The position numbers were made by a program, and so were the translations under genes. Below are positions 1,374-59,135 of a stretch of 64,000 nt of DNA, piece after piece. The first letter of the stretch is position 1. Each line of letters begins with the position of its first letter. This DNA comes from Sipunculus nudus (Eukaryota; Annelida; Sipuncula; Golfingiida; Sipunculidae), in contig CM049317.1 of NCBI GenBank assembly GCA_026874595.1, forward strand, positions 34,005,901-34,069,900. Reading direction: 5' to 3'. Under the pieces are notes generated by a model, which saw only the letters and a program-made list of their open reading frames with translations, ran no database searches and was not told the origin of the DNA.

Positions 1374-1922
1374 TGGGACGAAGGCGTTCCACTATTGTTA
1401 TTTGCGGTCAGAGATTCCGTACATTAATCGCTTGGGTTCAGTTTGTTTGAACTTGTGTTTGTTAACACAATAAGGGGTCCTTTAAAAGTGATCAAATATC
1501 AATGGGTCAATGAACAGAGTATAAAGTGGAACGTTTTGGATTATGTGGTCATATTCAATGAAAGGTTAAACGATGCATGTGACCTAGCTAGACAAATCTT
1601 GGCAAAAGCACAGACTAAACTGAAAACATGGTATGACAAAAAGGCTAGGGATCAAGAATTCAGGGTTGGAGATAAAGTATTGGCATTGTTACCAGGTAGA
1701 GACGGTCCATTGCAAGCACGGTATCATGGACCCTATGACATTCACAGAAAAATCAGTAATGTTATTAATGTAATCAAAACTACAGACAGGCGTAAAGAAA
1801 CTCAGTTGTGTGATGTAAACATGTCCAAACCATATTTCGATAGAAATGACACACAAGTGAATCCAGCTTGTTTAGTATCTTTTGTTGATGAAACAAAAGA
1901 AACTGACAATATGAGATTTTGA
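1374..1922 (+). pseudogene. Ty3/Gypsy integrase C-terminal fragment
   Basis: The frame starts WDEGVPLLLFAVRDSVH, then an in-frame TAA where Gln is usual, then SLGFSLFELVFVNTIRGPLK, KTWYDKKARDQEFRVGDKV and LLPGRDGPLQARYHGPY. These are the end of the integrase core and the GPY/F module typical of Gypsy elements. It is truncated at the 5' side and inactive. It lies within the insertion that separates gene B intron 1 from its gene A counterpart. Confidence 0.85.
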
Positions 1923-7900: not shown

Positions 7901-10900
7901 TTAATACCTGTCTACTGGCCATTCGTTGAAAATATTAGCCACACATGAATTAAAATATCTTATTAATATGACATATATAATTTAACACAATAGATTCGTC
8001 TGAAGCATTATCGCAAGATGTCGCTCATAAACAATTACAGATTCCCACATATGATGATTTAAGGTACAGAAATGAGGACTTTCATGTTAAAAATTTAAGT
8101 TTTATTTTAAAGGTTAGATCAATGAAAAAGAAAACCATTGAAGTATTCGTGTGCATCTTACCGACACCAGGCCTAGTGTTTTCAGGAGTAGAAACATTGT
8201 CTTCCGTTGTGGTGACCTTTGTACCTGGGTTTACTATTATAAAAGAAATATACAGTCTGTGACACAACATGATGGATTCAAATATTACGAACTGAAAAGT
8301 ATTAACGGACCAAAACGACGAAGACGTGCATGTATCAAAATAAGAATGTGTCCTCAACATGCATTTTATGCTTGGAACATCCAAGAAGCAATTTTTGGTT
8401 ATATTCTTTGAAACAGGAAATCATGTGAAAAGCTAATTTTACATCAAATAAAATGAAATTCGAAGGAACGCCTTACAAACTATTCCTTTTCATATGCATA
8501 TCACATTTTAAAGAATATTTGTCAGACAAGTGTTATTTTGCGAAATATATTGCACTGGTTGATTTTTCTCACGAATGTACCATTTTTATATCCTTACCTT
8601 TTTTCGCAAATGATTGAAATTATAAGAGTATCGCAGTCAGTAGTATGTCAGTAATAGTTAATAATACCTGTCTACTGGCCACTCGTTGAAAATATTAGCC
8701 ACACATTAATTAAAATGTCTTATTAATATGACACATATAATTTAACACAATAGATTCGTCTGAAGCATTATCGCAAGATGTCGCTCATTAACAATTACAG
8801 ATTCCCACAAATGATGATTTAAGGTACAACACTGAGGACTTTCATGTTACAAAATTAAGTTTTATTTTAATGGTTAGGTCAATGAAAAAGAAAACCATTG
8901 AAGTATTCATGTGCATCTTACCGACAACAGGCGTAGTGTTTTCAGGAGTAGAAGCCCTGTCTTCCGTTGTGGTGACCTTTGTACCTGGGTTTACTATTAT
9001 AAAAGAAAGATATAGTCTGTGACACAACATGATGGATTCAAATATTACGAACTGAAAAGTAATAACGGACCAAAACGACGAAGACGTGCATGTATCAAAA
9101 TAAGAATGTGTCCTCAACATGCATTTTATGCTTGGAACATCCAAGAAGCAATTTTTGGTTATATTCTTTGAAACAGGAAATCATGTGAAAGGCTAATTTT
9201 GTATCAAATTAAATGAAATTCGAAGGAACGCCTTACAAACTATTCCTTTTCATATGCATATCACATTTTAAAGAATATTTGTCAGACAAGTGTTATTTTG
9301 CGAAATATATTGCACTGGTTGATTTTTCTCACGAATGTACCATTTTTATATCCTTACCTTTTTTCCATTGAGGAATTCCTATTATATTTTGTATAATTTA
9401 AATGGTTTCCTCCACCATTATCGACTACAGAGCGCCAACATCCGAGCCATAGAGAGTGCCTCGTATCAATTAATATGACTAGTTGTCAAATCCATGTAAA
9501 ATAAATAAACTTTATATTAATAAAAATAAATAATTGAAGTGTTAATTAGCATTTAACCGGTACCAGGCGTGGTGCTTTCAGGAGTATAAGCCTCGTCTTT
9601 CGGTGTGGTGACCTTCGTAACTTGGTTTACTATTATAAAATAAAGATACAGTCTGTGACACAAAATGATTGAATCAATATTATGAACTGAAAAGTATTAA
9701 CAGACCAAAACGAGGAAGACGTGCATGTATACGAATGTGTCCTCAAAAAGAGTTTTATGCATTGAACATCAAGGAATGAATCTTTGGTTATATTCTTGGA
9801 ATCAGAAAATCATGTTACGGCAAATTGTTGTATCACATAAACTTTGGAAGTCCTGTTCATACGCATTTCACATTTAAACAACATTTGTCACCCAAGTGTT
9901 ATTTTTGAAAAAAAAAATATTAAACTAGCTGATTTTTCCCAAGAATTTACAATAGTAATATTCTTACCTTTCTCGCAAATTAATGGAACCTTATAGGTCT
10001 CACAGTCCCGTGATATCCAGTTCCCAGACTTATGAATGACAACACATTTGTTTGGTTGTGGAAAGTGAGGCAACCTGACATTCCAACGGAGCTGTGAAAT
10101 GTCAACCAGATTATTCCCTGTGAACAAAGAACATAATTTATAATAAATTGTGAAGCTTTGGCTTAATTCATTGTTCATTTTGGTAGAACAGATGTTACCC
10201 GTATTCAACCTAGACTCAATTACAACATAGTTCAGTCTAATCTAATGCGTAATCCGTACGTCATACATTTTTTAAAGCACCACGATTATGTGGGTCATAT
10301 TGAAATGTCGGCACCATGGTTTATGCTTGGTATAAGATTAATATAAAATCTGAATTTCAGAATTTATATTCCAAAGAAGTTAAAATTATTTTTGCATTAT
10401 TAAATAATAAATTAGTTATAATTAGTTCACTTAATATTATAATGCTTTGAAACCTTTGTTGGGCCATTCAGATGGTAAATAGCAATATACCTTGGTGCCA
10501 TGTCCATACGAAGCTGCTGCCCCCTGTCCAAAATTCCACTCCATTTTCCAGTATCTTTTGCAAATCGTCATGAATAACATCCTTATGTAGATTAAGAAGG
10601 TGAGATACTCTAGATTTACCGTAGGCTGGACAGACGTGGACAGCGGTCGCCCAATTAACTGGCGGGTTCATGACCATGTAACGTACGGCTTCATCATGGG
10701 AACCTCTGGCTTCACCAGGTTGGCATGGTGGTTCTGAAATGTCAACAGCGCATTACTACCCAATATTTCCATTTGATATTATATATAACTCAATGTCTTA
10801 TATAATCAGATCACTCGGAATCAGCATGGACCATGTTTTGTTCACCTTTGTGTTCACATATGTGTATACATGTAAAATATACGGGTTGAATTCCAGATTC

Positions 10901-13900
10901 CTTTAAAGGGGGAGGTTGGTGAATGTGCTGACTCATCAATGGAATGGCTTATAAGATACTTTACAAAAAACACAAATTGCAGGTTTAATACTGTTATATT
11001 TTGTTTTTACTCATAATTTTATAGAACAACTCAAATGATCACTTTACTATATTTGGAGTTTATTTTTAACCCTAATAACCCAACCTCTGGATCCGGCCAG
11101 GAAATGCTCTTAAAAATATACGTTCTGAAACGGCCATATATATGTATATATATATATAAGTTATTCTCAAACCGTACAGCATGATTGCAGTATAATCAAT
11201 CTTTGAAACGCAAAACCAGGCTTCGGTTCAAATGAACTAATGTCGCATTCTAGGACGTTATAACAATATATTCAACCATGACCACAATTATCCATATGAC
11301 TAGGTGAGTCATTATAAAATACATATACTTTGGTGACAGGTTGGAGAGAGAAACAAATGCAAATGGAATTTTGAGTGCAGTGGAAAAGTGTTGAATAACA
11401 TGCTACACGTGAAAGGTTTATTTACTATTATATCTGGTACAATATATTAATAAGCCGGTATGTATTGCTACGTATTGTAGCTCATCACATAACATTCGAA
11501 CGTTTACTTCGTAATTTCGGATTGTTTAAAGTTCAAAGAACGCTTTAAATCAAGTGTTTCTCAGCATCAATGAACTCCTATTTCTACAGAATTTAAGTTT
11601 ATTGTTTTGTTGATAGTTTCTACTTTACCAGATCACACACACATGAATAATACCTGTGACACATATTGGTTTGTACTCCCTGTCAAAGCTTGCAGAGTTG
11701 AAGGACACGTGTACCTTGGCTTTGATCAACCTTGATCGACCGTGTATACATAGACCTTGACCATGAGGGGTGGACGGTTTTTTCGGGCTCCCTCCGGACA
11801 ACATTATCGCCGCTCCTTAAGAGAAATGTAAAGAATTTTAAATATTCCATCTATAATAAACAATTATATTTATCAGATATCACGGTAATACATTTATTTA
11901 CATAAGATAAACCATTAAATGCTTGTACAAGAGAGGATACTATGACATCTAATTATTTGATCGGCTTGAACCCGCTCAGCATAATATAACAGGTATAATT
12001 TACCATTAAGCATAATGATCTACCATCAACAACGCGCATTCATCACGTGTGACACGAACGCTCTTATTATTGAACAACTTTCAAAACAGACCAAGCATGA
12101 GAAGGACCGCAGTGATTTCAGATCACACACAGGTCTATCAAATTAAGGTTCTCGTCTGAACAGCAGTAAAATACCTTGCGATCCCACATTTGAATGACCT
12201 TCGAGACATTCAGGAATTAGATCTCCTCAGGAGAGGCCACGTTATATTGAAAGTATATAAATCAAGCGGGCCTGATTTGGGGCTATAAGAATCCCTTAAC
12301 TGGTTACACCTATAAGAAGGCTCTTTGCACAGGCGGTATATATACTGTTACCAATAACCATTAATACACATCAAGATGAACTGTTTTTGTGTTTTTCTCT
12401 TTATGCGACTATAATGTGTAACTCGTTTTTAGTTTTACTGGGGACAAGTATGGCTAAAAGTGTATTATTTTTGTTTAATATTTTATATTAATCTGGCTCC
12501 TATTAGTATGGCAGAAACCCTGACTTGGCAAACTCGTCAGATCGTTGTTTTAAACTATTTATGTAAGGAAGTGGCAAAAGCTTTGTTTTGACAGAGGAGG
12601 CGCTAAAGAGGAGACCCATTAAATAAGGTCTAATTCATGATTAATAAAGGTTTAGCATATTCCTTCTTGTCGCCTGTCCTTAGCTTACTGATATACACCA
12701 TGGATAAAATAACCTACCCTTAAGGTGTAAAATTTGAATTTCATTTCTAAACATTCCTGACGACATGAAGCTGATCCGTTTATCCCAATAAATCCAAGGT
12801 TAAAGTTAATCTCGGCGTCATTGTCCGGCGTCCAAGGAGTCTGGTAACAAGCTTGGTAGTACAAGGGCACAGGTAGTCCAGACCCTTAGGGATATAATAA
12901 ATGTATATAAATGTATACTTGCAAATTTTGCAACCGATGACACAGTGTTCAATGGCTCGACCAGAGAGTTTCTAGATTATGAAGTATGGAAAAAAATATT
13001 TTTTTTTTAGGTTTCCATACCGGCCGGTTTCGTACCACACAGTGCCACAAGCTCTGTGTCACATATGCCTAACTGTCTAGTATTATAGGATGCTTAAATA
13101 ATATATATATATATAAAGATGAATAATGGGAATTATTCATCTTTTTGTATGGAATATTGCCTTACTTTCGTTAATATTACGCATATCAACCATACATGAA
13201 TGTCATATCGTCTATATCTATCTGTATGTAATTACAACATTGAAGTGATAACTTCCAAGGTTCATTAAGCAAATATTGAAGCTTTTCAAATCAATACCAT
13301 AAAACGTATAAAGAATAATTAGCAATAATGAGTTTAAGCAAGAAAAAGTCCTCAAAGTTTTAAGAGACTTGAGACCTGGTAAGCTAACAAACCAGGATGC
13401 TTTGGGTATTCTAGCATTTATTCAATTTAAAAATGCTGTGACCTGAAAAGAGGTGTATTTCGGTCTGGTAAACTCGGAGCCTGCTCTTGTGACATTTAAA
13501 CCATCCTGGCGAAGCATTTCAAGAATTAAACCAGGAAAAGACAAAATCCTCAGAAAAAGCGGTCAAAAGATGCGTACAATGCTAAATGTAATGCTCATCT
13601 GAAAAATTTTTCTTAGGTACAATCAACAACGGGAAAGTACTAAGCGGCCTCACAACCTAAATTATTAAGATGTTAAGGAAGGATTTAACCCTAGAGAAGA
13701 AACTTTGACTGCGGTCAATGATAAATTATACTTAGAAATCTCTAGCTAAGGGCAAAAGGTGGAGGACATTATAAAAAACTTCAGGAAAGAACCCATAAAT
13801 TGTCAAAAGAGAATGAACTATTCAGGAAAAAATTGATCCTACATCAACCAAAATGTGTGAATAAGTCTATCAAACGAAAGAAAATAACGATTGTCAATTT

Positions 13901-25469: not shown

Positions 25470-26235
25470 AAATATCATATAAGACTAAATAAATGTGCCT
25501 TAAGTCATTTCTTAAATTGTTAAGAGTATCACAACCTCTTATGTCCACCGGTAGGGAATTTCACAACATTTGGCCAGTGACACTGAATGATCTTTCAGCA
25601 TGAGTATTCTTGGCACAAAACAGTTTATATGTATGCAAATAATCTATCAGATAGACTGGTGCTCCTCTCTTGACACATGTAAAGATCAGTACAAGCACTT
25701 TGTATTGTATCCTGTATTTAATGTGTAGTCATGCAGCTCCTTGAGACACTATGTCGCATATATTCAGAGTTATCCTGGCGGCAATATTTTGCACTACTTG
25801 TAATTTTCGAAAGGTGCACTTTGGTAATCCACTAAGAACTGCATATGCAGAATTAAAATGTGATAATACTATTGCAGACATTAATATTATATATGCCTCC
25901 AGAGTCAAATATAATGTGATATTTTTAATGCTTAAGAGATTAAGAATCAGAGTCTGACACTTGGATGCGATGTGTTTCTTGAAGTTCCACTGACTGTCTA
26001 GCTGTATCTCGAGGTGTTTAACGTTAGGTTTGTCCCATTTCGATTTACTTAGCGTCTTCCTGGATCTGAAAATAACGAAATCTGACTTTGTGTTGTTCAT
26101 TTTTAATCTTTCTGCCATCATCAAACTGTTCAGCTCTGCCTGATAGTCTCCGGCAACGTACGCATTCTTCAACACATGGTCGTCCGCAAAACCATATACA
26201 AGAACATCTGATGGAATCATCTCAGTTTAGTGTAC
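25470..26235 (-). pseudogene. LINE reverse-transcriptase C-terminal remnant
   Basis: On the minus strand: VYGFADDHVL (the catalytic Y/F-x-DD box), MNNTKSDFVIF, VKHLEIQLDS, LPKCTFRKLQVVQNIAARI. After a frame change follow YKVLVLIFTCVKRGAPVYL, AERSFSVTGQML, a stop in place of Trp, NSLPVDIRGCDTL and LRNDLRHIYL. This order is typical of CR1/L2-like LINE open frame 2. Truncated, frameshifted and inactive. Confidence 0.85.
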
Positions 26236-26799
26236 TGGTATATGTCAGAAAACCAAAAGGACCGGCGCAGGAACCTTATTGAACAGAAAATGTGAGGCTA
26301 AATTCCTTAGAATGTTCAACGCCTACCTTAACTTTACACTCCCTGTGGCTGAGATAAGTCCTGAACCAATGTTGTACAGAATCACAAAGACCAAACCGAT
26401 TACTAAGTACTTCGAGTAAAAATATTTTAAACGTCTACACATTTAAATATTAATTTTACTGTCATATATGTATCAATATACTACTAAAGTGGTCCTGCCG
26501 GTAAGTTTGTACCAGAACTTCCGAAGAAACGGGCCATGACAGTGGGCGAATTTGTTATCAGCGTCATTAAGATGCTTTAACTTACAGAATCCACACCAAC
26601 TTGGCCTTTCCACTTGCACACAGTTAAATTCCCGGCAGCATCACATCCCAGCTCGGTCCCGTAACATCATACCGCGCCTGCCATTGCTGACCTTCACCTT
26701 GGCCGAATACAACAAAGACGTATATAGATTGATTCCGTTTCGACCACCAGACGTCGCTACCTTATGGGTCTGCCGAGGTCGCTACCTTAATATGGTTAT

Positions 26800-27175
26800 A
26801 AATGACTATACGAATGAGCCGGCTAATAGAATTAAACTAGAGGAAAGCTTACCTCGGGTATCTTCCTGGAAAGATGCAATTGATTATATATATAATACCA
26901 CTATGGATATGTTTATGAGGCAATTGCAGTTTAGAATTATCTTTAAAATATTGTCTGTGAATGTAAAGCTATACAGATGGAAAATAACTGATACCAATAT
27001 GTGTTCATATTGCAAAAACAGAAACAGAAATAGTAGTGCATTTATTCTGTGACTGCGACACAGCTAAATCATTTTATAGACAAATTAGTCAGTGGGCAGA
27101 ACACGCTGGAATAAACATTCCCGCACTGACTCCGCTCCTTTTATACATGGGATGTAACTAAGACAATGTCAATAA
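26800..27175 (+). pseudogene. Non-LTR retrotransposon C-terminal zinc-finger (zf-RVT) remnant
   Basis: The frame reads RQLQFRIIFKILSVNVKLYR, WKITDTNMCSYCK, then after a frameshift LFCDCDTAKSFYRQISQWA and LTPLLLYMGCN. The CxxC...H..C arrangement after the thumb is the zf-RVT module of LINE reverse transcriptases. It is on the opposite strand to, and different in type from, the fragment at 25470-26235. Confidence 0.65.
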
Positions 27176-35943: not shown

Positions 35944-36006
35944 ATGAAACATGGGTTGGATTTTACTTTCATTGTTATATTGGATGCTTCATATTGTGAT
36001 TATTAA
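35944..36006 (+). promoter_or_regulatory. Upstream ATG overlapping the gene C start
   Basis: An ATG 7 nt before the chosen start opens a 20-codon frame in another phase that stops at 36006, inside exon 1. Its context is weak (C at -3) while ATG 35951 is strong. It could lower translation of gene C through leaky scanning, if the transcription start lies upstream of it. Confidence 0.4.
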
Positions 36007-36062
36007 TGTTCAAGGTTGTGATTTATCTCGTGAATCTGAACATTGTACTACAAATTCAAATG
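35951..36062 (+). CDS. Gene C exon 1: signal peptide
   Basis: Encodes Met plus a hydrophobic stretch (residues 1-22, likely cleaved after VQG) and then CDLSRESEHCTTNSN. It ends in phase 1 at AATG|gtgagt. The mature start CDLS..SEHCTT is conserved in the two other leader exons at 17222-17120 and 2912-2810, which supports this reading frame and start. Confidence 0.85.
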
Positions 36063-38967
36063 GTGAGTATAATTCATACCTGAATTTTTTAAAAGTAAAA
36101 TCTCTGATTATATAAACAATGATTTCATGCACATCTGATGTGTTTATTGAGATTCAGACCAGGATCGGTATAAATTTATGATTGTATTGTTACAAAGCTG
36201 GCCATTTGCAGATAGATGAGCAACAATAGTTTATTGTGGAATAAATTTATTTTACAGGCTTACTCTAAGGGTAACAGGCTACAGCTGATTTTTTAATTAT
36301 AATTGCCACTCAACTCTAGTTTACATTCCTAGAAAAGAACTTTAATACAGTTTTTGTTATCCTACAAATATATGATATATATTACTAATCATTGAGCGCT
36401 TCAATTGTATTTACATCTTAAGTCATTTCGTGACCTATGTTGTGACTAAGTTAGTTATAATTATTGTATTGCTAATGCTCTATTCTATTCGAAGACAAAT
36501 ATTTATATAAATTATAATGAAATAAATCCAAAACAATAAAAGTATCCAAAACACAATAAAAACAAACAAAACACATGTACATTTAATTTTTTTTTGTGTT
36601 TGGGTGAAGCCCTGAATGATATACCAGAATCAATGAAGAGTTAAATTGTCTAATAAGTTTTTTTCAGGATAAAATGGTAAAATTATCGTCATCAATCATA
36701 TATATGTTACAGGGATACTGTATATTCAGGAATGAACCAGTTCAGTCTTTCCACGAAATAGCATTTAACAAAATGACAAAAATTTCAAGGCATTAAGAGT
36801 AATGATTAAAATCTTGTGATCATTATTAGTCACTCTGCCTTTAGTGTTTTATAGTCAAGTAATACCAATAAAAACTCATTCAAATTTCATTTGCTCTATG
36901 TAGCCCTGAAATAGTCCGCTTTCCCAATATATATACGATGACTCATACAAATTACAAATGGTCTGAAGCCCAAAGCGTATTATGCATTTTTTTATAAAAA
37001 CACTTACTTGCCATTGACCTGTTCCCGTCGTGTCGGTTTCATCATCTGTGAACACCATGTACACCTACTGATCTGCTCAGAGCTATATCCCACCCTAAAA
37101 GTCACAGACCAATTCGTTAAAAAAAAATTACTCGCAAACCTCTGTTCTAACCTAACAACGTGTGTGGTCATGCAGAAGTTACATACAACTAGCCCAAAAA
37201 CTGTCATTACGAGTAACGCCTGGAAAATTCAGTTATTTCATGAAATGTCAGAGTGAACAGTCGGTTCTTGAAATGCCTGAAATATTTAGGTATCTCATGA
37301 AATGCCTTATTAAACAGTTTGCCCGTATTATGTACTGTTTTTGCGTATTGGTTCGCAAGGGTTTTAATTTCACAATATTCGCGAATTGTTAAGAATTGCG
37401 AAATGGAAACCCTCAGTAATAGGACGGCCCATCAACGTAGATGATGAGCTTTAATTAATCAGCAAACTACTCTGCATGTGCAAGGTTTCGGATACGGACA
37501 ATGCAAACAGGCATTCATTGAAGTCAAAACATGCGGTAATTAAACTGGAAGCTAATCGAATGTGACACACTTGTGAATCTGAAAACAGTGACAGAAGTGA
37601 TTGAGGTGCCTTACGATTTATCACTTTTTTTATAATATACACAAATACTGCTTACTCTATGATTTTATATTTTTGTTCAGATCGCGAAAATGAAACCCTC
37701 ACAAACCCCCAAAATGATTAAATCACGAAAATACAGCCCCCTGAAAATGAAGTCAGTCACAATGTAGTGTATGTGAGCGCGCACACACACACCCTCACAC
37801 ACATATATATATTATCACTACTCAGCTTATAATACAATAATACACTTGTTCTCATAGTGAGCCACGGACTCACTTAAAAACACACATGGACTGTATACAG
37901 TAACATGTTTTTAGTTCCAGCAGAAACTATTATCTCGTTATAGAACTGATGTAGGCGAGATTGTAACAAACACATATTATAAGATAAACAACACATCACA
38001 GCTTTCACATTCAGTGACACTGAGCACGCTGTTATGACATAAGGTATATTGTCATCCAAGTGAAGTGCTATATACAGGGCTCTCAGGAACGCGGGGGTAA
38101 ACGTCTGTGGCGTTCTGGATTACTTTAGGACGCTCGAATATTGGGGCCCAAACATCCAATGAAATGCGCGAATTTCAGTCACTAACCATCGCCGGCTTCC
38201 TAAAAACAAACTAAACAGTTATGCAAACACTGCACCGGCTACTGAACCTGGCAGTTCTCTATATTCAAATGATTATATGATGATACGATTTCTAATCATA
38301 TAATAACATGATAGTGACATAAAATAACAGAAATAAATATCCATATTTACATAACCATTCAAAATTTGACACGAACCATCTCCGTTTGGGATACTCCAAG
38401 CTTAAATGGGACCCTCCATTTTTTCGGAACGTCCTGGACTCTACAATTTTTTTTTTTAAACCATGAATATATAAAATATGTTGACTCATTATGGAACGTC
38501 TTGAACGACTCACCACAGATGAACTCTTAATGCCAAATTAAAAAAAAATGACATGGGCCAATATATCTGCAAACCATGGGACGTGGAGAACAAAAAAAAA
38601 CCTGGGACGGGCAACTAAAAACCACTCTCATAGCTACGCCGGGTAGCTAGAGCGAAGAGCGCTGAGTGTTATATCACTTGAGCATCCAGACCCCTACACA
38701 CTACAGAACGGTACCATCCGAGCAATGGAGAGTTCCTAGAATTAGGTATTATTACTTGCTGTACAATCCATGTTCAATGTAGAGTTTACATTTATATATT
38801 TGTAAAACCGTCTTGCAAGATCGTATCGTCAAATGTCTTGAATTGTCGTTTTCGCGATGCAGTCTATAAAAAAAATTTGGTTTCAGCAATCTAAAACAGA
38901 TCGAATTAAATCATAAACAACACAGAAAAGTCAAGGAGTACCGACAGACCGACTGTAGAGATAAACA

Positions 38968-39031
<64 letters not shown>

Positions 39032-42000
39032 CTCCATCAGACTTTTATTGTTGTATGTAAAAGTGTACCCAATAAGCATATGCCTAGCTGTCTCTTTCAA
39101 AAGCACCTCATATAAATTTTATTAGCACAGTGCCATTCCAGGCATCGACTAACTCATAAGAAATTTTGCCAATAAATTTTAAGGAGTTGTAGTTTAGGAA
39201 TTCAATGATTTGATCTCCAGTTCTGTTTTATCCATGAATATCGTAAAATAAAAAACAAAACACCCATGAATATACATACTCATGTGTTTAATTATTAAAT
39301 ACATATGATTAATGATAGAAAATGTGTCGAGTATAAAATTAAGCAAAACTACCTATTGGCTCCGCGATGGCATATTCGGTTGTTAATGGTTGACTAAGCT
39401 CTCGTAGGGGTTTCTTTGGCACAGGTCTCCTCTCCGTGTTTTAATCTGTAATTATTTAAGGTAACGTTATTGCCTCCGCCAGGAGGGTATGTTTTCATTC
39501 CCGTTCGTGTTTGTTTTTTTTCTTACAACATGACTCACGCAGGAATGAACGAAATCCCATGAACTTTCCAGGGCACCTGGGAATGGGCCAAAGAAGAATT
39601 GATTAGATTTTGGTTTGGGCCTGGCTCATCAGCCGCATCCAGGAAGGACTGCTAGGAATATTCACAAATGTGTAGCCACATATATGATGATCGAAGACCC
39701 ACAAGTACTTTATGACGCTGTGCTAGATGGATGATGTCATAAAGTCCACATAGTACATGTATTGTGTTTCTCTGGACAGGTGTAAAGAAGTGCTTTTATC
39801 TGTGTAATGAAGAGAAGACATGGAACGAGGCCAAAAACTATTGTGAGGGCAACGGAGGCCATCTGGTGGCTGATAACGGAACTAGACCTATTGAAAACGT
39901 CATGGAGCTCCTTCAGCGAGTTGACGAGGCATGGACGTCGGGGAGAAGTGGACCTCGTTACTGGAACTGGGCCACAGGTATGATTTAGCGTGTTACAAAA
40001 AAAGGTTCATAAGCAATGGAGATCCTTTATTGAATCAAATCTACATCCCATATTAAAGTTGCTGTTACATATAAAAAAATGTAGATGTATAAAGAATAAT
40101 AGAGAAATATCATCACTGAGATATTTAATTTCATAATTCAGTAAAGATATTCATTATAGAATGACCATATTTCTTTGGTATAAACAAATATACTCGTAAA
40201 GATATTTTGCAAGAAGTAAACTATATCCTTTGTACTAGCGTGTGCCGGATAAGCTATTCGGTCAGTTTAAATGATGGCGTTGTCAAAAAAGCGTGAATGA
40301 ACGATACATTCCTAGTTTCTCGAAGAAGATATAAACTATGAGGTTGACTTTTTGTTCGCGAATGTTTGTATTTTGTTATATTCGCGAAAGGGAAGCTATC
40401 GCGAAATTAAAACTCTCTTGAATAAGATGCCCTATCTTCACAGATGAACAGCTATTTTACTGAAGCCTCACTGCTACCTTATCCACATTTGTACAGCGTT
40501 AATGTTAGAAAGAAAAATATTGATATTTTTTAAATGAACACATTTTTTATGTAATCCAAAAACCAAGCCTAATATTATTATTAATTTCAAATTATTGAAA
40601 TTGTCGAATTAAGGACAAGAATTTCCATTCGTTCGTTGCCCCCTTAAGTCTGTTCTCGTCTAATTGTTTGCTGGCATATTATTTGATTCATATAATAATA
40701 CATAATACATATACTCATGTAGACAGCTAAAATTAACGCTTGCGCATATGAAAGCATCCACAGTATTTACATGTACTCTTCTCTTTAGGGTCTGGACTAC
40801 CTGTTCCCTTGTACTACCAAGGTTGTTACCGGACTAATTGGCCGACGGACAATGACGCCGAGATGAACTCTGACCTTGGATTTATGGGGATAAACGGAGC
40901 GGCTTCTTGTCGTCAGGATTGCAAACAACAGAATTTTAAATTTTACACCTTAAGGGTAAGCTATTTTGTGTATATCAATAAGTTACGAGCAAGCGGACTT
41001 AGGAATATTTTGAACCTTAATGATAAAATTAGTATTAATTTATTGCTGTTAATCTCTTGATACCTCGCATCCCATAGGGCACTACAGACCATGTTAAGGA
41101 TGGTTAATCCATCCCTTGTTTCCGGGTTTCATTTGTTCAATGACTCAGTAATCCTCGCACGTATTAGTTTCCGAGAAATAGTTAATATTAATCCAATCTG
41201 ACAACCTCATTTTTAGTAATTCATTTTACTTCTTCATCTGATGGACCAATCCTTCCTCTTATACGCAATAACGTCTTTAAAAGCTGTGTTTTTAAATTTG
41301 TTTTTTTTATCACGCTGGATCATAAATTACTCTTGTTCCAGGATATCCGAGGTACCTTCAAGTGTTACTGCGGTAATTCTTTTGGCCGACTGGGATTATC
41401 CACATCATGTAAAAAGAACTGCGTGGATTTCCACAACTGTGGGACAACCCATTCGAGCGCCGTGTATTCTGTAAATGAAGGTAGGTTTACATGTGTCACT
41501 AGGTTTACATGCATGTGTCAAATGCTTTCTCAGTTATGTCATGGATTACATTATGGTTTAAACAAACGGTCTAGCAAGTCTGCTTGGAGTCAAATCTTTC
41601 ATAGAATCTCGAAAATTAGCAGAATTAACAAGACTAACTTTAAACTCAGAGTATTCGAATGAGTTTTTTTCGTGCAACACAAAAACGATGTATATCTCCT
41701 CTGCCTCCCATATCCAAATTTGAGTGGGAATACTTCAAAATAAGGAATACTTCAAAAGTTTTGTGTTCTTATCAATCCTAGATCGACCTTGAAAGTCACC
41801 AGGTTTTTAATTCATCTGAATCCTTGGTAGAAACAATTCATGTATAAAATCCCTCCCCCCCCCCCCCCACCACCCCACCCCAATGCTGAGTAGTTCAAAA
41901 GTTATGGAGTATATAAAAATATTATATAGGCTGATTTGAACTTGATGATTAATGTCAGTTCCTAGCTTCTGGACACATTCAAGATTTCGCTAGAAACATT

Positions 42001-45000
42001 TAACTAATCAAGTTTCGTGAAAAAACAAAGATGTTTGAAATTTATAGCGTTCCCAAAATATTTCTATTTCGGCTGATTTGAACTTGAAGAGGAAAGTCAG
42101 GTAACAAGTTTTCCATCGTTTTCGAGAACTTGGTTGAACGAACTTGTGCATCATGTTTGAAGAAAAGTATGCAGTGCTTCAAAAATTGCCATATTCACAA
42201 GAAACAATGGGCAATAAATAATTCTGATGATTTGACCTCGAAAGCTCAGGTCAGGGTTACCAATTTATTAACTCAAGCAAGAACTTGTTTGAAACAATTT
42301 TGCATACCAAACTTGAGTAAAACTATGCGATACTTTAATATTTATGTGGTTAACATAAAAATTCTATTTCGGATTTTTCGTCTTGAATGAGAAGATCAAG
42401 GTCACTGGTTTTCCATCTCATCCGGATATTGGTAGAAACAATTCAAATTTTGGAGTTTCATGAAAAAATAGAGTTTCAACGTTATCGTAATCACGCGACG
42501 TCGTCACCAACGACGACTGGTAAAACACAACACTATGTCTTCTCCATGGGACGGAGACATAAAACTACATATGTACCTATATATGTTTGCGTAAAACTTA
42601 GAAAGTACATAAACTCTAATAAACGTTCAAATAGAAAACAAAATATTAACATTTATATGTTTTGATGGTATTTGCCTTAGCCTGATCTTGGCTAAGGATT
42701 AATTTACATGGATGCACTGATTTAAGATTCCATTTAGCTCCAAATCTGCCAAGCATGTATGCATTTACAAATATAAACGGGTCTGTCTTGAGACAGTATT
42801 TCGTATGTGGAATGTAGGGTATTTGACTGCAGTTCAGATAAAAATTCACAGACCTTGACAGACCTGTGACCTGAATTCTCTGAGGTTCTAGCCAGAAAGA
42901 ATCATTATAACAGTAAATGGCTTGGTCGGTTTTTGAAAATTGGGCAGTGACATAAAGCGCTCGTGTCACAACCAGATGGATACGCTATATTTATAAGGAT
43001 GGGATAATTCATTCTGCGCTCGAAGTTTCACTGGTTAATCATACGTATAATGAATCATTACTAGCTCGTATAAACGAAGACTGGACTTTACGCTAGCATC
43101 TCTTATACATGCAAGCGTTTAACAGATTTTCATATATTAAAAAAATGAATGACACTTATTTATGATAAATATAAGTGTTTATATTTGTGTTATGTCAATA
43201 AGTAGGGCCATATCGACCCTCTAACATCACGTCCGGATTACTGGCCTGCCAGAATGCCTTTGCATCTAGGTCTGAGGAACGCATTATAAGGCCACATGAG
43301 GATGAAAATATTTTCGTCATTTCTGACAAAGCCTCATGGCCTTCAGATACACTTTCAATTGACATACACCAGACTAATCGTTTGCATTTTTAGTGTACTT
43401 TTTATCAACACCAAACATGAACGAGAACGTTTCCGTTCTAACTCAGTATATTAGTAAATTCCTCTGCATGTTTATTGAATTTCTGACCGCATGAATAAAA
43501 GCATGGCTTGAACGGGTTACTGGGTGCAGCGAAAGTGTAGGTGAAACAGGAAATTACTCGTTACCATAAAGACGGAGTTTCAGTTTTGGTTGTCAGTTCA
43601 CATGTATTTTCTTGTATAAATGCATCATTCATAGCATAATGTTAAGATTATGGTCTGTTTACAACAACATGAATGCAACATGATGGAAGACCACTGCGAT
43701 GCATTCCTCGATGTTGCTTGTATTACGACTCAAGTAGGCGTACCAGCCCAATAATCATTGCCTACGGAGTCGGGTTGTCACGGCTAGTCGATAAGTACCG
43801 TCTGATACAGAGGAGTTTTAATATGGTAGGCCCTATTTATTAATGCCAACATGGATTTTTAAAATGATTTTTATTAATTTGATTTAATTAAATTGTCAAC
43901 ATTATCAACAACTACTCCACGGATAAATGAATATTTTGAATTTTTGACATTTCTTCAGGAGCGGCTGTGAATTGGTCTGGAGGGAGCCCAGAGAGTCCGT
44001 CCACGCCGGGAAATCAAGGTCTGTGTTTACAAGGTCAATCAAGACGTCGGCAAAACCAGTCGCATGTGACTGTCAACTCGGCAAGCTGTGACAGGGAGTT
44101 CATACCAATATGTGTCACAGGTATTATCCATGTGTGTGTCTGTGTGTGCTTTTTTCCGGTTAATTGTTTAAAAATATTATTTTAAAAAATAAACCAATAA
44201 TTTGTAGAAAGGGTAACTGTTTCGCTGGGTAACTGAATCCTTAGAACATTCCCGACAGTTTTGTACTGAAACTCTGTCCGTGTTAATAGTAAAAAGTAAA
44301 CTGTTATAGTTTCTAAATTTAAACCAAAAGTATGTACAAGTCACACAATTTGTAATTTACAGAGAAAACATATACATTTACGTACATGTATTATATGATT
44401 GGAATAATATACTGTAATTAAATAAAATATAATAAATATATATTATCTTCATTTTGAAGCGACTGTTTATTTTTAGAGCATATCCGGGCCGGATCCAGAG
44501 GTTGGGTTATGAGGGTTGAAAATATTTATTACCTTTCCTTTGAAACAAATGCCAAATATAGTAAGAACGACACTTGAGTTGTACTATAATATTATAAGTA
44601 ACACCTATACTTTTCAAAGTATTTTTATAAGCCATTTCATTGATGAATCATCAGCAAACACCACCCTCCCCGTTTAAAGAAATCTCGATTAAGCCCTGTA
44701 TATTTTACATGTATACACGTGTAGGTGAACAAAAGTCCGTGCTTATTCTTAGTCTGTATACTAGTATATGTGATATAGATTTATATCAAACTGTAATATT
44801 GGGTAGTTAGTTAAATGCCTCATTGACCATTTCAGAGCCACCATGTCAAGCTGGTGAAGCCAGAGGTACACATGATGAAGTCATATGTTACAAGGTCATG
44901 ACCCAGCCAGTTGATTGGGCGAAAGCTGTCCACATCTGTCAAGCATACGATAAAAACAGAGCATCTCACATTCTTAATCTACATAAGGATGTCATACACG

Positions 45001-47730
45001 AAGATCTGCAACAGATACTGAGGCATAAAGAGGACTTTTGGACAGGAGGCAGCAGCTTCGTATGGGCATGGCACCAAGGTATACCACTATTTATATCATC
45101 TTAATAGTCCAATAAAGGTTTCAAAGCACTAACATATTCAGTGAACTAATGCCATGGCTTTTGGAAGACGTAAAGTTTTAGTTTTAAAGCTTAAAGCACA
45201 TTAGTATACACGCTCCTCTACCGTGTATATGATGATATTTTTCAATTAAATAATAATCTTAACTTCTTTGGAATGTTATTTCTATTTTATACTTATCATA
45301 AACCATAGTACCGATATTTCAGTGGGACTCACGTAAGTGCATATGCAGCGCTAAAAAATGTGTATAATGTCCGGATTACGCATAAGACTAACCTGTGTTG
45401 CCATTGAGCGTAGGGTGAATATGTGTAAAACATCTGTTCTACTAAATTGAACATTGTGTTAAGCCATAACTTATAATAAATTATTTTCTTTGCTTGTAGG
45501 CAATAACGAGGTTGATATAACACAGCGCCGTTGGAATGTCAGGTTGCCTCACTTTCCACAAACGAACAGATGTGCTGTTATTCATACGTCTGGGTACTGG
45601 ATTTCACGTGACTGCGAGACATATAAGGTTCCATTTATTTGCCAGAAAGGTAATAAGATTACTATTGCACATTCATGGGAGAAATCAGCCAGTGTAATAT
45701 TTTTTTCGCCAAAAAAGAGACATATGTGACAAAATTGTTTTAAATGTGATAAGCATATTTAACGGAATAGTTTGTAGGACGTTTATCCAATTTTTTAGGT
45801 GATATAACAATTTACCTTTCAGATGATTTTCTATTTAAAGATTATAACCAAAGATTCAAAATTCGGGTCTTCCGTTCCAAGTAAAAATGTATTTTTAAGG
45901 AAGCATTCCTTATTTTGTCACATGAGCATTTCCGTTTTGGTCTGTTAATACTTATTTCAACTCTAATGTTTGAATCCATCATTTTGTGTCACGTACTCTA
46001 TATTTCTATTAAAAGTAAACCCCGAGCCAGGTACAAAGAACACTACACCGAAAGACTGGGTTTCGACTCCTAGACACACCACGACTGGCACCGGTAAGAT
46101 GCTTATGAACATTACAATCTGAAAAATCAACCATAGAATTATTTTTAGTGACCTAACCATTTAAATTAAATTAAGTGTATGAAACTCCTCAATGATGTAC
46201 ATTAAAACATCATTTGCGGGAATCATTGTTTATCAGCGACATCTTGCTTCAATGCTTCAAACGAGTCTATTTTGTTAAATTATATGTTATTTTTTTATGG
46301 AGATATCCGAAGAAGTGCCTGGCAACAATTTTCAACGAATGGCCACTAGAAGGGGATTTTAAACTTATACCGACCTTAATGATTCTCATTTCATAAGGCA
46401 TACTTTAAATAGTTATCACTCTGAGATAACTTTCCTGTTATTGATATCAACCTAAACAATCCCAAAGTTAATAACGTTCTGTAATATATTACAATGAAAA
46501 GTACAACATTTGACAAAAAGCATATGGTGGGATAGAAATGGTAACTCACACAAAATTCAGTAAAAAGGACATATGAAATACATATTCAATTTACAAACGA
46601 GGTACCAGAGAATAAACTGTTCTTAAGCAACTGACTGAAGCGTTTTAGCTGTGACCTCTGTTATATGGTTCTGTTCTTTCTATTTTACAGCCACTGTCGA
46701 ACAGACATCGGTCGTCAACATAAACACGTACATCATAATCGGAGCCGTGGCCGCGGGGGTCATAATTCTCCTGCTCATCATTTGTTTAATCGTCATGTAC
46801 CTTACCAGGTAAATATATGTTTATACCTGCCTTGTTTATCTTCGTAAAAGGTTGATTTCAAACAGTCATTAAATGTGATCAAGAGTTTTTTTTTTTCATT
46901 AAATGGGTTTGTTGTTGAATGCATGTGACTGATGTGAATTCTTTCAGATTTTTTCTTGATATCGTATTAAACACATATATTGCCAAGCAGGTTTCCTTCA
47001 ACCTCTTTCTTGTTATTTTTTTCGAAAGAAGGGATAGTTTTTTTTTTATAAAAACTCGGATTAAGGCGAGCAAACAATATGTTTTGATTAAATGAACATG
47101 TATATTTTTACAAAAAACATACAAAAAATTCACTTTATGGCACACTGTCTTTTTTACAGTCGCCGGAAGGCAAAGAGACGTGCTCCAGAGGGGGCTCCAG
47201 TACCATTTATAATCGGAAACAGCCCCCAAAACATGGACCAGTTTCGTATGAGCCAAAGCACTCTAAACAACAGCTACGATTACCCTACAGCAATGTACGG
47301 ACCGGGAGGGTTTGAAGAAACGTCAAGCTGGCAGAGGCCTCAACACAAACGACTTCCCCACATGGCGACCATGTTTACACCACCCGGATTAAAGGGCGGA
47401 TCACCCGAATCGTACGCACAGAACGAAATATCGGAAATTAATCCGGAAGATTTGTATGCAAAGCCGGATTTGAGTAAAAAGACTCGACGGAAAGAAGTTA
47501 ACATTGAAAACAGTAGTTCGTCTAGCGGAAGAGACGTCATTGATGACGTTTCTAAGGTCAACTCGTCTGGTGTTGATGCGAGAAACGTGAACATGTTTCA
47601 AGAGGAAGCACAGGCCGCTAACAGTACTGTGAACGAGTCGGTTTTTGATAGATGGTTGAACTCTGTTGATCCCAAATACACCGGCAGCGATAAGGCGTCC
47701 GAAGTACAAGACGATGATTTGTATTACTGA
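35951..47730 (+). CDS. Gene C: membrane receptor, CTLD with nested WSC domain + second CTLD + TM + long tail (10 exons)
   Basis: Ten exons can be joined with consensus splice sites: 35951-36062, 39780-39977, 40789-40955, 41342-41480, 43959-44120, 44836-45078, 45500-45649, 46016-46093, 46691-46808, 47160-47730. The sum is 1938 nt, 645 residues plus stop, with no internal stop. Order: signal peptide; CTLD1 first half; WSC domain; CTLD1 second half; long-form CTLD2; Thr/Pro stalk; transmembrane helix; basic juxtamembrane segment; 189-residue tail with Tyr motifs. Both CTLDs keep their disulfide cysteines but show no EPN, QPD or WND calcium/sugar motif, so the ligand cannot be predicted. Family knowledge: such proteins are surface adhesion or recognition receptors; the exact role is unknown. 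The start is chosen because ATG 35951 has A at -3 and G at +4 and opens a hydrophobic leader. No TATA box is certain. A polyadenylation signal follows the stop. Confidence 0.85.
38630..38790 (+). mobile_element. SINE-like tail, copy 2 (gene C intron 1)
   Basis: Contains accatccgagcaatggagag, ttcctagaattaggtatta, tgctgtacaatccatgttca. The ordered motifs match 9372-9520 and 50200-50275. Confidence 0.45.
38963..39029. repeat. (AT)n microsatellite in gene C intron 1
   Basis: AT tract with one GT interruption near its start. Confidence 0.95.
39780..39977 (+). CDS. Gene C exon 2: first half of CTLD1
   Basis: 198 nt, phase 1 at both ends (acceptor tctggacag, donor gtatga). Encodes VKKCFYLCNEEKTWNEAKNYC at its start: the long-form cysteine pair KKC..YLC, then the first core CTLD cysteine in NYC. 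It continues through a segment ending RYWNWATG, where the CTLD is cut at the same place as CTLD2 (ending VWAWHQG). The rest of the fold is encoded at 43959-44120. Confidence 0.82.
40789..40955 (+). CDS. Gene C exon 3: WSC domain, N-terminal part
   Basis: 167 nt, starts in phase 1 (acceptor ctctttag) and ends in phase 0 (AGG|gtaagc). Encodes LYYQGCYRTNW, then FMGINGAASCRQDCKQQNFK and FYTLR, matching the GCY..., SC..C and aromatic positions of WSC domains. The paralogous exon at 12884-12718 has identical length. Confidence 0.85.
41342..41480 (+). CDS. Gene C exon 4: WSC domain, C-terminal part
   Basis: 139 nt, phase 0 in and phase 1 out. Encodes GTFKCYCGNSFG, then SCKKNCVDFHNCGTTHSS and AVYSV: the CYCG, C..C, CGG-like and VYS signature of a WSC domain. 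Exons 3 and 4 together are 306 nt and start and end in phase 1, so they form a symmetrical module. No counterpart was found in gene A. Confidence 0.85.
41755..42545. repeat. Diverged tandem repeats in gene C intron 4
   Basis: Phrases like 'gctgatttgaacttga', 'gaaagtcaggt', 'ttttccatc', 'ttggtagaaacaattca' and 'tttcgtgaaaaaacaaa' recur about every 130-165 bp. A run of C lies at 41851-41868. No open frame of note. Confidence 0.5.
42646..42969 (-). other. Unassigned open frame inside gene C intron 4
   Basis: A 107-codon frame on the opposite strand with balanced composition and four cysteines in its central part: FSKTDQAIYCYNDSFWLEPQ, VTGLSRSVNFYLNCSQ, HTKYCLKTDPF. The look is of an extracellular domain fragment (weakly like the C-terminal part of invertebrate F5/8-type or fucolectin-like modules), but no family can be named with confidence. 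It may be a retroposed or nested exon, or chance. Confidence 0.25.
43959..44120 (+). CDS. Gene C exon 5: second half of CTLD1
   Basis: 162 nt, phase 1 at both ends. Encodes GAAVNWSGGSPES, GLCLQGQ, SASCDREFIPICV: the three remaining core CTLD cysteines (C2 in GLC, C3 in SASC, C4 in PIC). They match the first cysteine in exon 2, so the domain is split by the WSC exons. The paralog at 11815-11654 has equal length. Confidence 0.83.
44836..45078 (+). CDS. Gene C exon 6: first half of CTLD2
   Basis: 243 nt, phase 1 at both ends (acceptor accatttcag, donor gtatac). Encodes EPPCQAGEARGTHDEVICYK (N-terminal long-form cysteine pair), then DWAKAVHICQAYDKNRASH with the first core cysteine, and ends DFWTGGSSFVWAWHQG. 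About three quarters of the residues are shared with the paralog at 10733-10491. Confidence 0.85.
45500..45649 (+). CDS. Gene C exon 7: second half of CTLD2
   Basis: 150 nt, phase 1 at both ends. Encodes NNEVDITQRRWNVRLPHFPQ, RCAVIHTSGYWISRDC and KVPFICQK, supplying C2, C3 and C4 of the CTLD. It is the best conserved exon between genes A and C (paralog 10117-9968). Confidence 0.88.
46016..46093 (+). CDS. Gene C exon 8: Thr/Pro stalk
   Basis: 78 nt, phase 1 at both ends (acceptor attaaaag, donor gtaaga). Encodes VNPEPGTKNTTPKDWVST followed by PRHTTTGTG: a short Thr/Pro/Lys spacer of the kind that carries O-glycans, between CTLD2 and the membrane. In gene A it corresponds to four 72-nt exons. 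Confidence 0.75.
46691..46808 (+). CDS. Gene C exon 9: transmembrane segment
   Basis: 118 nt, phase 1 in and phase 2 out (ACCAG|gtaaat). Encodes ATVEQTSVVNIN, then a roughly 24-residue helix beginning TYIIIGAVAAGVIILLLIIC, then MYLTS. The next exon opens with RRKAKRR, the positive-inside flank of a type I membrane protein. Confidence 0.85.
47160..47730 (+). CDS. Gene C exon 10: cytoplasmic tail and stop
   Basis: 571 nt, phase 2 in, stop TGA at 47728-47730. Encodes a 189-residue, Ser- and Asn-rich, low-complexity tail. Visible motifs: RRKAKRR next to the membrane, YDYPTAMYGP, EDLYAKPDLSKK (a YxxP site of the type bound by Crk/Nck SH2 domains), VFDRWLNSVDPKYTG, and an acidic end DDDLYY. Binding roles are inferred. 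The tail has no similarity to that of gene A. Confidence 0.82.
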
Positions 47731-47785: not shown

Positions 47786-47791
47786 AATAAA
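47786..47791 (+). terminator. Polyadenylation signal of gene C
   Basis: AATAAA, 56 nt after the gene C stop codon, the first such hexamer downstream; suited to a short 3' UTR. Confidence 0.6.
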
Positions 47792-56389: not shown

Positions 56390-56455
56390 TCAAGGCATAG
56401 ATGCCTATATGACTGTGGCCTTGTAGAATCGCCGTGACATCGGGACCGCGTGACC

Positions 56456-56587
56456 ATGACCCCAAGAAGTGTCCTGGTAACAGGCGCCAACCGAGGTATC
56501 GGCCTGGAGCTCGTCAGACAGTTTGTAAACCTGGACGAACCTCCAGTTCATATCATCGCAGCATGCAGACAGCCTGAGTCGGCACAG
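56456..56587 (+). CDS. SDR exon 1
   Basis: 44 codons from ATG, beginning MTPRSVLVTGANRGIGLELV; holds the cofactor-binding glycine motif TGxxxGxG. Ends in phase 0 at CAG|gtaaat. Confidence 0.9.
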
Positions 56588-56751
56588 GTAAATATAAACA
56601 TAGCACTTTACAAATATTACTAACGCTCTCTGCATGTATACTGAGTGATGTTTAGTGCTAATAAAAGGAACAGCTGCTTCCCTGTGTTAAGCATCATTTA
56701 CCTGACGACACGATCGCTGGTGTGTATGTAGTGTATATACATAGTAATGCT

Positions 56752-56822
<71 letters not shown>

Positions 56823-56931
56823 ATATATCTATAAATAAATATATATATTTATTCGAAGAAAATGGTCTATATGTAGTTGACTATTCACGATGTGCATTTC
56901 TGAGTAATGAATATAATATTTCAACACTTGA

Positions 56932-56992
<61 letters not shown>

Positions 56993-59082
56993 CATTAACA
57001 TTAACGGATGCTGTATTAAACACAAAGAGCTTACACTTACTAATCCTGTTAAACTGATCCTAACGGACCAGAGACAGTGTACAAACGCCTAAAGTTGTGA
57101 AATATACACACCATAAGATACACAATGAGAGAATGTGACTCTTGAGATATTTACTTTTATCTGACCAAATGACTTTTCGGGATTTCAACAAGAAAAATAC
57201 CCATTTTCGCGTCAGTTATGTCACAAAGATAGCCACTGTATATCACGGCAAATCCTTTCCTTATTCTGATCACCGGTCTCTAGGAACGCCCAGAACACAT
57301 ATTGACACCTAAACCTGGCATCATATGATAACTACTTAAATGCATAATATCAGCTTTTCAATATTATCTTATAATTAATGAAAATAAAATTGACAGGTAA
57401 TGTTCCGTGTTGTTGCCGGTTCATTTGAAAACGCCGGTTAAAAGCCTTTATGACCCATGCATGCCGCCCTTCCGCCAAAGGTCGTTTCTTTTCGAAACGA
57501 GCCTCTTCCAATTATGTAGTGTTGAACGGCCGTGGTTACTGGTGTCATCTGTCAAACTTTAAAATCAAATGTATAACATTTGGAGGAGACACCTGTTTAC
57601 ATTTCATATTCATATTTTACTATACGATTCAAGAATTCCATATGGGATAACCAGTTTCATATTAATATTATAACAAAATATCTGTAGAAGAATAATTGAT
57701 TAAGAGAGACCAACTTTCAAGCTGTATAAACTTATTTTACAGTTAGTCTATTTGTATTCTCGTAGGAGTTGAAAATGCTGAAGAAGAACCACAGTAATGT
57801 ACATGTTTTCAAACTGGGTGAGTGGAGTATTGTCATAGTCCATCATTGTCGCTGTATTATACATCTTTGGGCTAAATCATCTCCTGTTATCTCAAGATTA
57901 TACATTTTACTCATAAGGGGCTATCAACAGGCTTGAAACGTCGAAAGTCTAAATGGTGAATATTATCAAATACTGAAGAGAACTGATAATGACTGAATTT
58001 GATGTAATCGCCTAATGTCATGCTGGCAATAAGAGTATAAAATGCAAATAAAAAATACATATTTTTAGTAGACCTAAGAAGAAATTACGTTGAGTTCAAG
58101 TCCCATCAAATTAGGTTACTACCCGGAATTGAAAAAAATATAATCGTATGTTTATGTACATAACACATGTATTCTATATTCCTTGTGTAGAGGTGACGGA
58201 CTGCAGTCAACTTCCAAATTTAGTGAACCAGGTCAAAGACAAAGTTGGTGACACAGGACTTAATCTGCTCATCAACAACGCTGGGATCTATGACACTAGT
58301 GGTTTGCGTGACGTCACAGCGGACGACTTGAGAAAGAGCTTCGAGGTTAATTCCATCGCGCCACTGATGATAGCTAAGGTATGAAGGTTTGTCATCATAT
58401 AGGATCGGGGAACGATCCGTCCGTACGGGTATATTACCCCCGCGGTCTGCCTAAATTAATTCAGCTAATTAATTATGCTAATATTTAATTGAGAAATCTA
58501 GGGCACTATACACTACTATTCAACGGCACAATCTTACAACAGAGACACGTAAAACAGTGGAACCTGTCTGAAAGACCACCTATCTATTAAGACCACCCTT
58601 GAGTGAACAAAACAGTCACTTTGGTTATGACTGACTTCTCTAATAAGACACCTGTGAATTAGGACAACTTTTGACAAGTCCCATCTGTGGTCTAATTACA
58701 CAAGTTTCACAGTACTGTACTTTCATTCCACTTGACACAACTCATCTATATCCATCTGCCGCAAATACGTCTTATCTCTGACGTCTGAGATGGAACTGGT
58801 GACTAAAATAAGTATTATTTTCAAAAGTCTCCAGTCATGACTTGTCATCAGAATGGCTTTATGGGAAATTATGGTTTGTGAAATATACTGCAGTTGGCGG
58901 CACTCTACAGTCACTGTCACCTGTAATAACTGCACAGTAGCCTATAAATTCAGTTTTGAGCTAGAAAAGTATTATCCTGAGTTTACCCTCACTTTATTAT
59001 ATTTCACTGTGGTGGGGAAGATTAAATTTTTCTTCCCTAATTAGTTTGTTTGTTACTAAGGTCAAGGTTATGAGCGGTTTTT

Positions 59083-59135
<53 letters not shown>

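Follow-up and report, generated by a model that had tools for sequence, protein, structure and literature searches.

Can one protein domain be housed inside another, and if so, how did it get there? This question is raised by a gene in a window of 64,000 nucleotides from the Sipunculus nudus genome (the whole stretch of DNA analyzed here, C12:34005901-34069900 of a 1.43-Gb genome), in which two exons for a WSC domain lie between the exons for the two halves of a C-type lectin domain (CTLD). From the sequence, we consider it very probable that the first CTLD of the encoded protein (CTLD1) carries a complete WSC domain, and the nested design appears to be the mark of a receptor family, not a unique case. 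The best overall explanation, which we regard as likely, is a nested CTLD1/WSC receptor that would have arisen by exon-shuffled insertion and multiplied thereafter.

Gene model and domain identity

The gene model spans 35951-47730 on the plus strand and comprises ten exons with AG/GT borders and a single open frame of 645 residues. In order, the product contains a signal peptide, the N half of CTLD1, a WSC domain (two exons), the C half of CTLD1, a second CTLD (CTLD2, two exons), a stalk, a transmembrane helix and a tail, and is predicted to be a type I membrane receptor. Exon 1 (35951..36062) provides the start codon, the signal peptide and an N-terminal CDLSRESEHC segment; two look-alike stretches lie on the minus strand of the window (17165-17118 and 2855-2808). 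Exon 2 (39780..39977, phase 1-1) encodes the N half of CTLD1 with core cysteine C1 and a W-x-W motif, exons 3 (WSCa; 40789..40955, phase 1-0) and 4 (WSCb; 41342..41480, phase 0-1) encode the first and second parts of the WSC domain with three and five cysteines, respectively, and exon 5 (43959..44120, phase 1-1) encodes the C half of CTLD1 with core cysteines C2-C4. A first-pass annotation of the window had placed these four exons correctly to the base and had also described this distribution of the core cysteines; all four exons have AG/GT borders. Given their phases, the two WSC exons form a symmetrical module that can be skipped in frame. CTLD2 is encoded by exons 6 (N half, 44836..45078) and 7 (C half, 45500..45649), both of phase 1-1, followed by the stalk (exon 8, 46016..46093), the transmembrane helix (exon 9, 46691..46808, read by eye) and exon 10 (47160..47730), which contains the stop codon and codes for a cytoplasmic tail of some 189 residues, eight of them tyrosines. 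All ten exons are on the plus strand, and a polyadenylation-type hexamer begins past the last of them, at 47786.

When joined without the WSC domain, the halves of CTLD1 matched Lectin_C (PF00059; curated cut-off 22.6 bits) over positions 2-106 of 107, with 37.0 bits and an expectation value (E) of 6.1e-9. The N half alone scored 24.4 bits and reached position 59, while the C half alone matched no Pfam family at E ≤ 1. CTLD2, which is free of a WSC domain, also exceeded the cut-off (33.7 bits, 3-107 of 107). In a search of solved structures, the joined CTLD1 retrieved PLA2R on top (7qsr), with an E of 1.8e-11 summed over four CTLDs and a best single stretch of 22.5 bits (E 0.00086). The split in CTLD1 and the intron within CTLD2 fall in the same alignment column and the same phase, in agreement with the first-pass annotation, and the CTLD2 intron (before exon 7) gave no match to a WSC exon.

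The WSC domain between the CTLD halves, likewise proposed at first pass, could be recognized by two means. Upon excision it scored 28.4 bits against PF01822 (cut-off 27.8), and the eight cysteines of exons 3 and 4 follow the spacing CxxxC / CxC / CxxxC of Wsc1, derived here from residue numbers in an excerpt of PMC9024836. The excised WSC domains at three further nested loci introduced below, P1 (28.9), P5 (46.1) and P6 (65.9), also passed the cut-off. Indeed, the nested domain of P6 is canonical, its best solved match being Kremen-1 (E 4.1e-11).

Recurrence of the nested order in the genome

A genome query with the N-half exon, in which 150 of 201 candidates were scored, yielded 68 matches at E ≤ 0.01; 17 lie on C12 (25.3-26.0 Mb) and nine on C13 (32.7-33.1 Mb). 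Fewer matches were obtained with WSCa (5), WSCb (6), the CTLD2 N half (14) and the CTLD1 C half (3); the last query retrieved itself, P1 and a degenerate inverted copy within the window, and more distant C halves were found by exon scanning. The tail exon (47160-47730) matched only itself among the candidates scored, whereas the ectodomain exons do have relatives.

Eight loci, distributed over four contigs, show the order N half, WSCa, WSCb, C half. Apart from the window gene on the plus strand of C12, these are P1 (C12:33.97 Mb, minus), P5 (C12:77.04 Mb, minus), P6 (C12:34.08 Mb, minus), Q1 (C12:25.64 Mb), P2 (C2:25.28 Mb), P4 (C9:39.15-39.17 Mb, minus) and Q3 (C8:19.69 Mb). Profile hits of at least 10 bits occur in this same order at three additional loci (L023, L031 and L033). 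At P3 (C12:56.05 Mb; L028 and L034), two very similar N halves lie about 7 kb apart, each with a WSCa exon, and neither a WSCb exon nor a C half was found there; one of the WSCa exons is split between two frames, which suggests decay.

The joined halves of all seven relatives passed the Lectin_C cut-off (30.2-50.6 bits), and in all eight members, the window gene included, the match runs from positions 2-4 to 105-107. The core cysteine of the N half is invariant in 10 of 10 aligned members and the three cysteines of the C half in eight of eight. The column of the N/C junction is shared by seven of the eight CTLD1s (P6 is off by one column) and by both CTLD2s compared (window gene and P2). These observations bear on an alternative in which there is no split CTLD, only a decayed half CTLD, a WSC domain and an unrelated cysteine-rich exon in tandem. 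In its favor, when the WSC domain is retained, Pfam at best reads P6 (Lectin_C 3-64 of 107) and P5 (4-67, two stretches) as half a CTLD beside a WSC domain. However, the joined halves match nearly full length in every member tested, the C-half cysteines are invariant and the junction shares its column with the CTLD2 intron. All of this speaks against the tandem alternative, which we consider very improbable.

The exon scans at the relatives' loci used preset phases and therefore provide no test of phase. As a control, acceptors and donors were scored around each of the 32 exons at the eight loci without imposing a phase, and for 61 of the 64 borders the best-scoring site had the phase expected. 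A census then covered the 29 N-half loci besides that of the window (L010-L038), with 1.5 kb on each side; of the 68 N-half matches, 30 came with loci, two more lie in P4 and P6, and 36 were left out. With first-round profiles at 12 bits, a WSC exon was present downstream on the same strand at 21 of 29 loci, with none upstream and none on the opposite strand. Four of these positives (L010, L011, L028 and L034) are contributors to the profiles or close look-alikes, and without them the count is 17 of 25. At 10 bits the downstream, upstream and opposite-strand counts were 22, 0 and 1, and at 8 bits 24, 1 and 1. Profiles widened with P5 and Q1-Q3 gave 24, 0 and 0 at 10 bits and 25, 2 and 1 at 8 bits. 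Under the widened profiles, a larger share of the census loci are contributors or close duplicates, which makes the first-round census the better independent count. At a separate locus (L007, C8:16325338), WSC stretches precede the N part of a CTLD (18.4 bits), possibly representing a non-nested WSC-CTLD gene.

The window gene and P1 resemble each other at the nucleotide level even in their introns, which suggests that the pair is fairly young. Over 347 codons, their nonsynonymous (dN) and synonymous (dS) divergences by the NG86 method are 0.115 and 0.377, with a ratio (omega) of 0.30. For individual exons, NG86 gave omega values of 0.10 (CTLD1N), 0.13 (WSCb), 0.20 (CTLD2C) and 0.53 (CTLD2N), and YN00 gave 0.27 (CTLD1N), 0.60 (WSCa), 0.13 (WSCb), 0.54 (CTLD1C) and 0.18 (CTLD2C). 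The other relatives (P2, P4, P5, P6, Q1 and Q3) are far more distant, with 15-51% identity to the window exons, except for the WSCb exon of P2 (54%). Because the nested order recurs at other loci and omega between the window gene and P1 is 0.30, a chance origin of this order is very unlikely. Two other accounts were discarded: the other loci rule out an accident in a single gene, and a separate gene within the intron does not fit WSC exons that, by eye, lack a start, a signal peptide and a stop belonging to them.

Several observations nevertheless weigh against a nested receptor family. The excised WSC domain of the window gene exceeds the PF01822 cut-off by only 0.6 bits, and a Pfam scan of the whole 645-residue protein did not list WSC at E ≤ 1. 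The excised domains of P2 (19.9 bits) and Q3 (17.1 bits) stay below the cut-off; for P4 and Q1, and for the WSCa of P3 taken on its own, Pfam returned no WSC hit. Neither EPN/QPD-type nor WND motifs were seen by eye in the CTLDs of the window gene; these motifs characterize calcium-dependent sugar binders and mark sugar binding, not the fold, and the C halves of P4 and P5 have QPD and QPN, respectively. Three of the 64 borders deviated in the phase control, namely the N-half acceptor of Q1, the WSCb donor of Q3 and the CTLD1C donor of the window gene, for which the expected site ranked third (3.0 versus 3.5). In the census, five of the 29 loci showed no WSC exon at 10 bits within 1.5 kb, the first-round profiles gave the one opposite-strand hit at 10 bits, and the controls of the widened profiles were not clean at 8 bits. 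At Q2 (C13), only an N half and a WSCa exon were found within 6.1 kb. Finally, NG86 omega between the window gene and P1 is 0.50 for WSCa and 0.64 for CTLD1C. Two further searches bear on the WSC domain of the window gene: compared with the PDB, it gave no meaningful match (best E 0.63), and a genome search with PF01822 returned 17 matches, among which this intron-split domain was not found.

Proposed origin and function of a composite head

The view that a CTLD intron already in place received the WSC exons, as the first-pass annotation had proposed, is supported by the column and phase shared with the CTLD2 intron, the symmetrical 1-0/0-1 module and the near full-length Lectin_C match obtained without the WSC domain. 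We suggest that the symmetrical exon pair entered a phase-1 intron behind the W-x-W motif by exon shuffling, and that gene duplication subsequently raised the number of nested units. In CTLDs, the long-loop region, their usual place of ligand binding, comes after the W-x-W motif, and the WSC domain would sit in this region of CTLD1. In yeast Wsc1, Y22/Y24 and Y107 belong to one surface cluster, as stated in PMC9024836, from which we infer that a WSC domain has its two ends side by side; if so, it could be inserted into a CTLD with little strain. CTLD1 might thus serve as a platform that holds the WSC domain, fixed at both ends, at the usual ligand face of a CTLD.

Such a composite head could bind glycans, probably microbial or surface glycans, and clustering might be relayed to the tyrosine-bearing tail. 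For this recognition-receptor mechanism, our confidence is evenly balanced. A role in pathogen recognition would be in keeping with the kinds of domains and their expansion. Still more tentatively, at slightly less than even confidence, we envisage a receptor family spread over several chromosomes, with the composite CTLD/WSC head as one recognition surface and WSC inclusion possibly under splicing control.

As an alternative, the two WSC exons could form an optional cassette, by which splicing would switch between a plain and a WSC-bearing CTLD1. Skipping both exons preserves the frame (543 residues) and leaves CTLD1 intact, and phase-1 introns flank the pair on both sides. However, the present data contain no sign of skipping, and the conservation of WSCb between the window gene and P1 together with the retention of WSC exons at other loci fits either constant or frequent inclusion. 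We consider a cassette unlikely, but less so than the tandem half-domains discussed above. A misassembly or a separate intronic gene would be favored by the degenerate inverted copy, which indicates that the region was rearranged, but is extremely improbable given that order and phases are repeated on other contigs.

If the nested CTLD1/WSC arrangement is real, it would reveal the carrying capacity of the long loop and offer a natural example of a recognition module lodged within a second one, and its multi-locus expansion would resemble a repertoire of recognition receptors. Nesting of this kind can be overlooked during annotation, as illustrated by the partial Lectin_C stretches of P5 and P6 with the WSC domain in place: profile annotation may show a partial lectin beside a WSC domain or, as for the window protein, miss the WSC domain. 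Nested receptors may therefore hide in annotated proteomes.

Known relatives and other features of the window

Among solved sequences, the one nearest to the joined CTLD1 belongs to the PLA2R / mannose receptor group. Ricin-type and FN2 domains define this group, and neither was found in the window protein by the Pfam scan (E ≤ 1); unlike the members of the group, the window protein has two CTLDs only and a WSC domain inside CTLD1. Kremen-1/2, which supplies the top solved match to the P6 WSC domain, has a kringle domain and is not known to have a CTLD. The scan of the window protein showed no kringle or CUB domain at E ≤ 1. An excerpt of PMC3927609 assigns a CUB domain to Kremen and describes a phase-0 intron that splits the WSC region of Kremen 2, a feature shared with the window gene. 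At the same threshold the window protein showed no PKD, REJ, GPS or PLAT domain and no polycystin membrane region, and by eye it has a single transmembrane helix, unlike the Polycystin-1 / REJ family. In Polycystin-1, the CTLD and the WSC are separate domains. Human PKD1 has both domains according to part of PMC1934368, which is a likeness to the window protein. Membership in the polycystin or Kremen families is, however, unsupported by the whole-protein Pfam scan.

Bivalve-specific CTLD proteins that carry additional domains, including WSC, are reported as uncharacterized and of possible immune function in a section of PMC10140915; like the window gene, they combine CTLD and WSC in one protein, but a WSC domain inside a CTLD, as in the window gene, is not mentioned in that section. 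The main text of a review of bivalve C-type lectins (PMC12842671) does not contain the word WSC, and in an excerpt on mussels (PMC4581086), a WSC protein and C-type lectins appear as separate transcripts. Among the matches listed from open-licence PMC papers, no title or abstract opening describes a WSC domain within a CTLD.

The degenerate inverted copy of the gene lies on the minus strand at 17165-7409 and retains a signal-type exon, WSCa (12718..12882, 73% identical), the C half of CTLD1 (11655..11813, 60%, with one core cysteine lost) and the CTLD2 exons (9969..10734, 71% and 80%). No convincing match to CTLD1N was found in it, and the place of WSCb holds no more than a weak, stop-containing match (12129-12076, E 0.60), perhaps a decayed remnant. 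Omega values relative to the window gene are 0.93 (WSCa), 0.55 (CTLD1C), 0.64 (CTLD2N) and 0.27 (CTLD2C). Four stretches at 9618-7409 (minus) resemble a stalk. Three are spaced by 757-760 bases, and the blocks that hold the stretches appear nearly repeated in their frames, which possibly reflects amplification of a stalk exon. A further signal-peptide-type exon at 2855-2808 (minus), with the P1 N half about 32 kb downstream of it, is possibly the first exon of P1. Elsewhere in the window, open frames at 1428-1922 (plus), 25729-26226 (minus) and 26540-27052 (plus) resemble retroelement fragments by eye, and those at 56438-61079 (plus) likewise resemble exons of a short-chain dehydrogenase, including a TGANRGIG motif.

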